From Sphaerochaeta pleomorpha str. Grapes (GTDB lineage: Bacteria > Spirochaetota > Spirochaetia > Sphaerochaetales > Sphaerochaetaceae): 64,000 nt of DNA. The stretch lies in the NCBI RefSeq assembly GCF_000236685.1, contig NC_016633.1, positions 186,001 through 250,000 of the forward strand, written 5' to 3'. Both the position numbers and the translations under genes were made by a program. The notes below the pieces were generated by a model that worked only from the letters and a program-made list of their open reading frames with translations, searched no databases and was not told the origin of the DNA. Position 1 is the first letter of the stretch; the number at the start of each line of letters is the position of its first letter. Positions 17,079-19,889 of the stretch are shown here, in pieces.

Positions 17079-17084
17079 AGTATA
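17079..17084 (-). promoter_or_regulatory. -10 box of the polyferredoxin operon
   Basis: TATACT on the minus strand, 31 bases downstream of the 18-bp response-regulator box. There is no matching -35 hexamer, as expected for an activator-dependent promoter in which the box replaces it. Confidence 0.55.
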
Positions 17085-17115
17085 GGACCGGTAATGTCAC
17101 AAAATGGGGAGAGTC

Positions 17116-17133
17116 GGTAAAGATTAGGTAAAG
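17116..17133 (-). promoter_or_regulatory. Response-regulator box 1 (direct repeat CTTTACC-N4-CTTTACC)
   Basis: On the minus strand CTTTACCTAATCTTTACC, two CTTTACC units with an 11-base period, as expected for an OmpR/PhoB-type dimer binding head to tail. The identical 18 bases occur at 19303-19320. Exactly 65 bases separate this box from the ATG at 17050, and the same 65 bases separate box 2 from the ATG at 19386, in the same orientation. Confidence 0.8.
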
Positions 17134-17204
17134 ATGGGTTTTGCCAATGCTCTTAGTATGGTTTTAAACTTGCCCTTGATAGGTACAGAGCGTACAATCG
17201 AACC

Positions 17205-17927
17205 ATGATATATGTAGTTGAAGACAATGACAGCATACGGGAAACCATACGGGCCTATCTGGAGATTTCCGGCTATACGGTAAAAGAATTTGCACAGGTC
17301 GCCGGGGTATTGGAGGCCTTCGATTTCATACCTCCTGAGCTCTGTATCCTTGATGTAATGCTTCCCGATGGAAACGGGTTTGAACTTGCAAAGAAAATTC
17401 GCACGGAAAGACCGGAAACTGCTTTTTTGTTTCTTACCGCAAGGGAATCGGAAAGCGATCGTATTATGGGTCTTGAACTCGGGGCAGAAGATTATATCGT
17501 AAAACCTTTTTCTCCCCGCGAACTGGTTTTGAGAGTTCAGCTTATTCTCAGAAGGGTGGAGAAGGATGGCCATGCAGTACAATCGGAAATACAAAAACAT
17601 GCTGTGCAATCCTGGAAAACCGATGGTCATCTTTTGGTTATCGATACTTCTTCCCATGTGGTCCTGCTTGATGGGCAGTCTATTCATCTGACAGCGGTAG
17701 AGTGGAAAATCCTTTATTGGCTTTCTACGAAGTCAGGGGTCTTGGTAAGCAGGGAACGAATTCTCGGGGAATGCCTCGACTATGCCCATGATGGTTCGGA
17801 GCGGACGGTGAATACCCATTTGAAAAACCTCAGGGCCAAGCTTGGGGGAATTGCCTGGATTGAGACTATCAGGGGGTTCGGGTATAAGTTTATGGGCGAA
17901 CCGGTGGAGGAATCGCAAAACCAATGA
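17205..17927 (+). CDS. OmpR-family response regulator
   Basis: 240 residues: a receiver domain with the acidic pair (EDND, residues 6-9), phosphoacceptor Asp in LCILDVMLPDG near residue 51, Thr in FLFLTARES and Lys in DYIVKPFSP near 103, then a winged-helix DNA-binding domain (about 145-232) ending in ERTVNTHLKNLRAKL and IRGFGYKF. It lies divergently from the polyferredoxin operon; its stop overlaps the kinase start by four bases. It is the obvious candidate to bind the two identical boxes at 17116-17133 and 19303-19320 and so control the flanking exported proteins. Confidence 0.95.
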   Translation: MIYVVEDNDSIRETIRAYLEISGYTVKEFAQVAGVLEAFDFIPPELCILDVMLPDGNGFELAKKIRTERPETAFLFLTARESESDRIMGLELGAEDYIVKPFSPRELVLRVQLILRRVEKDGHAVQSEIQKHAVQSWKTDGHLLVIDTSSHVVLLDGQSIHLTAVEWKILYWLSTKSGVLVSRERILGECLDYAHDGSERTVNTHLKNLRAKLGGIAWIETIRGFGYKFMGEPVEESQNQ

Positions 17928-19312
17928 AACAAAGAATAAGCTCTCGTCTTTTTACCTATATGAAGGGCCTGTCTGCCCGCATGCTGGTACTTGTGTTGCT
18001 TTCCCTTGTAATGTTTTCCCTGGTTCTTTCCCTGCTTCTCTATTTTGGCAGTGAACAGATACTCGAGTCCTGGCGGATTTCCGAGACCGCTTCCCTGCAT
18101 TCCTATATTGAAGAAAACCTCCTTGCAGTTGCGAACGAGGCTCGGCAGGAAGGTGCCCCTGTTACGACAGCAAGGTTGAGTGAGGCCTTTTCTTCGATGC
18201 CTTTCAGTCCTTCGTGGATAGTAGTAACTGGTCCTGATGGCCAGATTGCCTATTACTACCGCAAAGGGGAAGGCTCTGGAATGGCAAGGAATTTTTTGCA
18301 GAATGTCATGATGGAAGGGAACGAATGGTATGATGTACTGCTTTCAGATGGTTCTTTGGCTTTCCGCTATAGCACGGTGATGCCGGCTTTCAATGAATTG
18401 GATTCCAACAGGATGATGCTTAGTGCTGCCCGTCAATTACTCCTTTGGGGAGCCTTTTTGGCAGCTGTGCTCTCTTTCGTATTTGCCTTTTTTTTCTCGC
18501 GTCCACTTAAAAAACAAGCAGCTTCCCTTGTTGTAAGCCTTAATCGGATGGCAAGTGGTAATCGTGATGTAGCAATCCCTGATTGTCCTGTACTGGAATT
18601 CAACCAGATTTCCAAGGCTTCCATCGTGCTTCAGGAAAATTTGAAAAACGAAGAGGCTTTGAGACGGCAATGGGCTGCAGATGTTGCCCATGACCTACGA
18701 ACCCCCATTACGGTAGTCCGTGGACAATTGGAAGCCATGCTTGATGGGATTTTTGCTCCCGATACCAACCGCCTCAATCGGCTTTTGTCGGAAAATGTAA
18801 AACTGGAGGCACTTGTTCAAAGTCTGGCACTTCTTACCAGAATCGAGACCCCAGGTTTTTCCCCGACTTTGCAATCCTTTTCCCTTCCCCCGTTTTTTTC
18901 ACGGATAGCGGAGAAATTGGGCCCGGAAATTGAAAGGGCAGGGTTTTCCCTTGTCCTCGATATTCCCCCTTCATCATTGACTGCCGACCAGGTGTTGTTT
19001 GAACGGATTATTGACAACCTGATTTCCAATGCAATCCGCTACGGGAAGCAGGGGGAAGTAAAGGTGTCTGTGACCTGCAGTGAGAATGGCAAACCCCTGA
19101 CCTGTTCGATCGAAAACATTGGCTCTGTAAAGGATGATGTGCTTTCCAGGATGTTTGACAGGCTCTACCGTGCTGACAGTGCCAGGGAAACCAGCGGCAG
19201 TGGGTTGGGGCTTTCCATAGTAAAGGCTATTGCAGAAGCCCACGGCTGGACTGTTTTCGCAGAATCGGACGAGAAAAGCGAAAGAACCCGGTTTGTCTTA
19301 TCCTTTACCTAA
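17924..19312 (+). CDS. Sensor histidine kinase, partner of the OmpR-type regulator
   Basis: 462 residues. A helix near residues 22-42, an extracytoplasmic sensor of about 115 residues, a second helix near 168-188, a HAMP-like linker, then the kinase core: H-box DVAHDLRTPITVV near 255, N-box DNLISNAIRYG near 365 and G-box SGSGLGLSIVKAIAEAHG near 425. It should phosphorylate the regulator encoded just upstream. The signal is unknown; the regulated genes point to a redox or metal cue. The last codons of this gene (TTT ACC TAA) form half of response-regulator box 2, so coding and regulatory sequence overlap. Confidence 0.94.
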   Translation: MKQRISSRLFTYMKGLSARMLVLVLLSLVMFSLVLSLLLYFGSEQILESWRISETASLHSYIEENLLAVANEARQEGAPVTTARLSEAFSSMPFSPSWIVVTGPDGQIAYYYRKGEGSGMARNFLQNVMMEGNEWYDVLLSDGSLAFRYSTVMPAFNELDSNRMMLSAARQLLLWGAFLAAVLSFVFAFFFSRPLKKQAASLVVSLNRMASGNRDVAIPDCPVLEFNQISKASIVLQENLKNEEALRRQWAADVAHDLRTPITVVRGQLEAMLDGIFAPDTNRLNRLLSENVKLEALVQSLALLTRIETPGFSPTLQSFSLPPFFSRIAEKLGPEIERAGFSLVLDIPPSSLTADQVLFERIIDNLISNAIRYGKQGEVKVSVTCSENGKPLTCSIENIGSVKDDVLSRMFDRLYRADSARETSGSGLGLSIVKAIAEAHGWTVFAESDEKSERTRFVLSFT

Positions 19313-19320
19313 TCTTTACC
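19303..19320 (+). promoter_or_regulatory. Response-regulator box 2, overlapping the kinase stop codon
   Basis: CTTTACCTAATCTTTACC, identical over 18 bases to box 1 and in the same direction relative to its gene. It lies 65 bases before the ATG at 19386 and contains the TAA stop of the kinase. Confidence 0.8.
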
Positions 19321-19385
19321 TGCCCACTCTAGCAACTCCATGCCAGGATGCGAAATTACAAGTATCAAAAGTCTGGAGGACGAGT

Positions 19386-19889
19386 ATGGTAAAAAAAACC
19401 TTTGTAATTGGATTGTGCATGCTTTCGATAGCCGGTAGTCTGTTTGCTTCTTCTGCCTTGAGAGGAAGCGATTATGTTCGGTTGGGAAACCAGGGCTCTG
19501 TAACGGGAAATCTGGAAGAAACCGATGGTGAATGGTTCCTGACAACCGATGATGCCGAAAAATATGCCTTGCACCTTGGCAACTATGAGGTCATATATCC
19601 TGAAGGGATTTCCCTGAGAGAAGGGGAGCTGGCTTTGGTGAGAGGCTTTGTCTACGGTCAGGATATTTCGGCGATTAGCGTAGATTCCGAAGGAAAAACC
19701 TGGGAATTCAGAAGCAACGACGGGCGGCCTCTCTGGTCTGGGGACGGAAACAGGCAGAACGCCAATGCCTACACGAATGAAGGGCGGATGCAACAACAGG
19801 TAAAAGCCACGCCACAACGAATGCAACCAAGCGGATATGGTAGGTTTGAGTCTGTACAGACTGGTAGAATGAATAAGAACCGATACTAA
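19386..19889 (+). CDS. Exported protein with small beta-rich (OB-like) domain
   Basis: 167 residues from the ATG at 19386 (GGAGGA six bases before). A signal peptide (MVKKTFVIGLCMLSIAGSLFASS) leads into about 90 residues that read as a beta-barrel: GSVTGNLEETDGEWFLTTDD, YALHLGNYEV, LREGELALVRGFVYGQDI and WEFRSNDGRPLW. The Gln/Asn-rich C-terminal 45 residues look disordered. The alternation suggests an OB-like fold related to exported BOF/YgiW-type proteins, but no catalytic motif is visible. It has its own response-regulator box and terminator, so it is a separate unit of the same regulon as the polyferredoxin operon. Confidence 0.8.
   Translation: MVKKTFVIGLCMLSIAGSLFASSALRGSDYVRLGNQGSVTGNLEETDGEWFLTTDDAEKYALHLGNYEVIYPEGISLREGELALVRGFVYGQDISAISVDSEGKTWEFRSNDGRPLWSGDGNRQNANAYTNEGRMQQQVKATPQRMQPSGYGRFESVQTGRMNKNRY

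Follow-up and report, generated by a model that had tools for sequence, protein, structure and literature searches.

Activators of the PhoB, PmrA and KdpE type operate through a winged-helix output domain and bind as head-to-tail dimers to direct repeats of 10-11 bp, and the pho box stands in place of the -35 element. In the CreBC system, the CreB/BlrA tag, TTCAC-N6-TTCAC, is found upstream of creD, occupying about -80 to -65 relative to the creD start; in S. maltophilia, this tag lies between creC and creD (PMC4689548). Here we examine a 64-kb stretch of the Sphaerochaeta pleomorpha genome (hereinafter, the window) in which two copies of a direct repeat flank a two-component system; comparative sequence analysis indicates that this repeat is a real, conserved regulatory site, with a regulon of a known regulatory kind that is previously undescribed in the literature searched.

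A repeated 18-mer around a regulator-kinase pair

The 18-mer CTTTACCTAATCTTTACC consists of two CTTTACC half-sites separated by TAAT and, hence, forms a direct repeat with a period of 11 bp. As the first-pass annotation of this DNA had claimed, exact copies are located at 17116-17133 on the minus strand (box 1, through which the regulator is proposed to control the P2-P1 operon) and at 19303-19320 on the plus strand (box 2, proposed to serve P5 in the same way); 65 nt separate each copy from the ATG that it faces (17050 on the minus strand and 19386 on the plus strand, respectively). The kinase stop codon, which had been placed inside box 2, is indeed found there (TAA, 19310-19312). No other 18-mer is duplicated in the window, both strands considered, the baseline obtained in first-order Markov simulations being 0.3 duplicated 18-mers on average and 4 at the maximum; at up to 2 mismatches, the 18-mer has 5 matches in the window versus 0.49 expected. 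A scan of the complete genome (3,590,853 bp), of which many unrelated copies had been named as the damaging outcome, yielded these two exact copies only, with the next-best matches carrying 1 mismatch.

The genes between the boxes are those that had been reported there, and the expected domains were found in both. The first one (17205-17927, plus strand) encodes a response regulator with a receiver domain (Response_reg, PF00072) and a winged-helix output domain (Trans_reg_C, PF00486), and the adjoining one (17924-19312, plus strand) encodes a membrane sensor histidine kinase (HisKA, PF00512, and HATPase_c, PF02518; H-box VAHDLRTP). This domain composition and, as far as can be read from the DNA, the direct repeat of about 11-bp period before the target promoters are those of the OmpR/PhoB class. 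The closest NCBIfam model of the regulator is CreB (NF008296), with a score of 183.8 bits versus a cut-off of 273, and the kinase scores 105.6 bits against the CreC model (cut-off 356) and higher against the BaeS model; the solved relatives of the regulator are BaeR, RegX3 and MtrA. A putative promoter of the regulator gene, TTGCCC-17-TACAAT (17170-17198, plus strand), of a kind that is not more frequent than in shuffled sequence, leaves 6 nt between its end and the ATG; judged by this region (17170-17207), the mRNA of the regulator looks leaderless. A similar layout close before the ATG is seen in regulator orthologues of the genus.

Box 1 faces the gene of P2 (16610-17050, minus strand), an exported protein of 146 aa with a conserved EDH-N-C motif and a predicted Ig-like beta-sandwich structure (pLDDT 83.7), for which structure comparison returned generic Ig-like matches only. 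P2 was found at 17 loci, all of them spirochaetal in the scan performed; a P1 homologue is nearby at all 17, and a P5 homologue is also present at 12. P1 (15577-16641, minus strand) is an integral membrane polyferredoxin (Fer4_5, 2.9e-21, and Fer4 domains, with conserved cysteines) that shares with the NapH/MauN proteins the membrane location, the CxxxCP motifs and two 4Fe-4S motifs. It differs from NapH in its score, which is below the cut-off of the NapH model (TIGR02163; E-value 3.7e-30, 105.3 bits versus 213.05), and in its pairing with P2, which is exported and Ig-like; alongside P1, no napGC genes were seen. P5 (19386-19889, plus strand), which is faced by box 2, is an exported protein of 167 aa in which residues ~30-104 make up an OB-fold-like core and the tail is modelled with low confidence; the overall confidence of the model is low (63.7), and structure comparison recovered the common OB-like core only (Z up to 6.8), with no informative relative. 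The first-pass annotation took these proteins for an electron-transfer unit, a notion that the NapH-like polyferredoxin, and none of the other proteins, would suggest. Separately, in two loci (L140 and L141), an exported MsrA-like gene with a signal-peptide-like start adjoins P2 (PF01625 was tested in L141).

Conservation of the box and of its distance to the -10 hexamer

Orthologues of the regulator (58-71% identity) are present in 16 other Sphaerochaeta genomes, and the box is found 3' of the kinase gene at all 17 loci of the genus that have the regulator, with 15 strict matches and two cases (L043 and L054) in which one half-site is degraded. In one genome (G002), the downstream gene has been duplicated together with its box, and another one (G040) also has a second box, the two being 0.7 kb apart. 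Box 1 is conserved upstream of the regulator at four further loci (L041-L044). The P2-P1 genes were found in divergent orientation upstream of the regulator at three loci of the genus only, the window, L041 and L042, with a full box in between; L043 has a gap in this place, and in L044 the full upstream box is kept, with P2-P1 not detectable. Two further spirochaete MAGs (L161 and L162) share the layout P5-kinase-regulator-box-P2-P1 with the window, their equivalent of box 1 lying between the regulator and P2, so that this layout is probably ancestral.

The 65-nt distance to the two start codons, correct as such, does not carry the meaning that had been attached to it: the corresponding distance is 66-67 nt in L041 and about 85-91 nt at the site of the DUF2202 operon (see below), so that a register based on the ATG was discarded, and it is the 31 nt from the last base of the box to a -10-like hexamer that relatives keep instead. 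This spacing applies to box 1 (TATACT at 17079-17084, minus strand), to box 2 (the hexamer of an extended -10-like element, TGC-GAAATT, at 19349-19357, plus strand) and to the DUF2202 sites (box-N31-TATTGT or box-N31-TATACT). The GAAATT hexamer downstream of box 2 is a poor one and leans on the extended TGC; the equivalents in relatives are TGC-GACTAT, TGC-GAAACT or TATTGT. The box-1 promoters of L041, L042 and L044 have no good -10 hexamer at 31 nt. Since the genus-wide pattern scan required a -10 hexamer, the spacing was tested on sets of boxes picked without one. For regulator homologues from other genera and families of spirochaetes, 27 nearby boxes were considered, of which 13 have TANNNT at exactly 31 nt; no other spacing between 20 and 45 nt reaches more than 4. 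Similarly, in a partly overlapping set of 30 nonredundant boxes from outside the genus, TANNNT is found at 31 nt in 19 (2.3% elsewhere) and NANNNT in 26; all these counts are inflated by related genomes, the matches nonetheless coming from several families.

A box repeated in this manner could, in principle, be a product of chance, or the likeness could be imposed by the sequence coding for the C-terminus of the kinase (SFT-stop), given that box 2 overlaps the last kinase codons and that most relatives end with FT-stop or similarly. We consider this hardly credible: box 1 and the DUF2202 boxes lie outside the kinase coding sequence, the spacing of 31 nt is fixed, and the 18-mer is the sole duplicated one in the window. 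Furthermore, in L042 (8840-8990; genome G016), about 140 extra nt separate the kinase stop from the box, with the box and the -10 hexamer staying together; the box is intact though detached from the stop codon and, therefore, is not merely kinase coding sequence. This locus, along with the boxes away from the kinase, rules out a coding constraint as the cause of the box. The extra stretch is peculiar to G016 among the genomes compared.

A scan for sigma-70 promoters revealed no excess over shuffled sequences and no -35 element at the boxes. The location of the box at about -61 to -44, combined with a promoter that lacks a -35 element, fits activation by an activator of the OmpR/PhoB class. The opposite could be envisaged, namely, that P2-P1 and P5 are repressed, or that box 1 mainly serves the divergent promoter of the regulator. 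In favor of such a role, box 1 is only 71 nt away from the regulator ATG, in one locus (L157) a box with a -10 hexamer spaced by 31 nt faces the regulator itself, and the genus members without P2-P1 (L045-L056) retain a degenerate box, made up of one good half-site (GGTAAAG) and one decayed half-site, that invariably lies about 50 nt away from the regulator ATG. The difference between the ~50 nt and the 71 nt, about 21 nt, corresponds to two helical turns, which suggests autoregulation rather than a mere relic. Nevertheless, the boxes are located upstream of the would-be -35 and clear of the -10, in promoters without a -35, which is the layout of activation, and CTTTACC is oriented toward P2, P5 and DUF2202, so that we regard predominant repression or dual use of the sites as unlikely and activation as the preferred reading.

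A third predicted target and the extent of the regulon

The regulon is wider than the two promoters recognized in the first-pass annotation and includes at least one further site, outside the window. Scanning of 26 genomes of the genus with a generalised box showed that, in nearly all of those that have the regulator, a third box precedes an exported DUF2202 gene; in the genome under study, this box (C1:2168344-2168361) is located before the genes for a small exported protein and the DUF2202 protein. The DUF2202 targets belong to the ferritin-like family PF09968 (178.5 and 177.1 bits versus a cut-off of 22; E-value ~1e-52). No mention of DUF2202 was found in the literature searched, and searches for this regulon in Sphaerochaeta returned nothing relevant and no description. 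The small exported protein ahead of DUF2202 (L005, 1501-1942) contains two CLVTGE motifs and has no family match. In one genome (G006), an extra box precedes two small SHOCT-domain proteins (L082, 231-706).

The pattern box-N31-TAYNNT is found in 17 of the 17 genomes with the regulator and in 1 of the 7 without it (Fisher p = 5e-5, an overstated value because related genomes are not independent); the reversed control pattern yields a handful of matches only. In one genome that is 88% complete (G010), the regulator was not detected and the DUF2202 box is nonetheless present. These data bear on the proposal that the boxes belong to a different regulator, such as one of the paralogues at G000:C1:1123359 or 1124119, the adjacent pair being a bystander. 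The same genomes do encode OmpR-class paralogues of 46-50% identity, and the sites of this class often look alike. Several of the 7 regulator-less genomes, however, retain paralogous regulators, and four genomes (G004, G007, G022 and G023) keep the paralogues while having neither this regulator nor the box; moreover, across spirochaete families, the box stays beside this pair or, as in L157, before the regulator itself. Control by a paralogue thus appears quite improbable, and the adjacent regulator remains the favored candidate.

Across the class, the box turns into CTTCAC-N5-CTTCAC, which equals TTCAC-N6-TTCAC and coincides exactly with the CreB/BlrA tag, TTTAC being the Sphaerochaeta form. 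In four loci of another spirochaete family (L142, L143, L150 and L151), three CTTCAC-type repeats with an 11-bp period are located 3' of the kinase gene. In this family, an exported barrel-like protein without a Pfam match also follows the kinase.

Proposed mechanism, function and relation to known systems

Taken together, the conservation at orthologous loci, the co-occurrence with the regulator, the presence of the box before a further exported-protein gene and the 31-nt spacing support the original proposal, namely, that the box is a site of the OmpR type on which the adjacent regulator would bind head to tail. Quite probably, the boxes are the sites of this regulator, through which the kinase would activate the P2-P1, P5 and DUF2202 promoters. 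In this scenario, the kinase would sense an envelope signal and phosphorylate the regulator, two molecules of which would occupy the 11-bp direct repeat, head to tail, some -61 to -44 from the start site. Once bound, the regulator would bring RNA polymerase to promoters that lack a good -35 and carry their -10 hexamer 31 nt beyond the box, switching on P2-P1 and P5 at the locus and, elsewhere in the genome, the small exported protein and the exported ferritin-like DUF2202 protein. Binding by the regulator, activation as opposed to repression and dependence on phosphorylation are what we infer from the layout of sites and genes.

The predicted targets, namely, P1, P2, P5, DUF2202, the SHOCT proteins and, in another family, the barrel-like protein, are all exported or membrane proteins, which, together with the MsrA-like neighbor of P2, suggests a function in envelope redox or metal homeostasis, so that the regulon may respond to redox or metal stress in the envelope. 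As a tentative and rather speculative extension, a spirochaete-wide regulon could run a redox/metal module in which P1 would pass electrons across the membrane to P2, P5, DUF2202 and, in some relatives, the exported MsrA, a module that would shield the envelope of anaerobes or mend damage to it. Regardless of the exact function, the box with its 31-nt spacing is a precise rule that can be used for scanning any spirochaete genome, and it assigns a likely control to DUF2202, P2 and P5, families of unknown function.

How does this system relate to those mentioned at the outset? Unlike the pho box, the box described here leaves 31 nt between its end and the -10. The reverse complement of the core, GTAAA-N6-GTAAA, presumably resembles the CpxR box, and the targets of CpxRA are likewise envelope proteins. 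The two systems differ in that their spacings are one base apart; in addition, the score with the CpxR model is clearly lower than that with CreB, and the targets examined showed no domain of the CpxP/Spy kind. Membership in CreBC was rejected as well: the regulator and the kinase are below the CreB and CreC cut-offs, and creD (PF06123) is absent from the four genomes searched (G000, G002, G005 and G019), with a positive E. coli control. The targets are different, and Sphaerochaeta has TTTAC instead of TTCAC. The likeness to CreBC/CreD of E. coli and Stenotrophomonas, and to BlrAB of Aeromonas, lies in the combination of an OmpR-class pair with a direct-repeat tag before a neighboring envelope-protein gene; as with the CreBC tag of S. 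maltophilia, the repeat follows the kinase gene and precedes its neighbor, in the exact TTCAC form outside Sphaerochaeta and in the TTTAC form within it. Given the missed cut-offs and the absence of CreD, we describe this system as one that works like CreBC without being filed as CreBC, a case in which the logic of the CreB-type tag extends to a distant phylum and a different set of genes.
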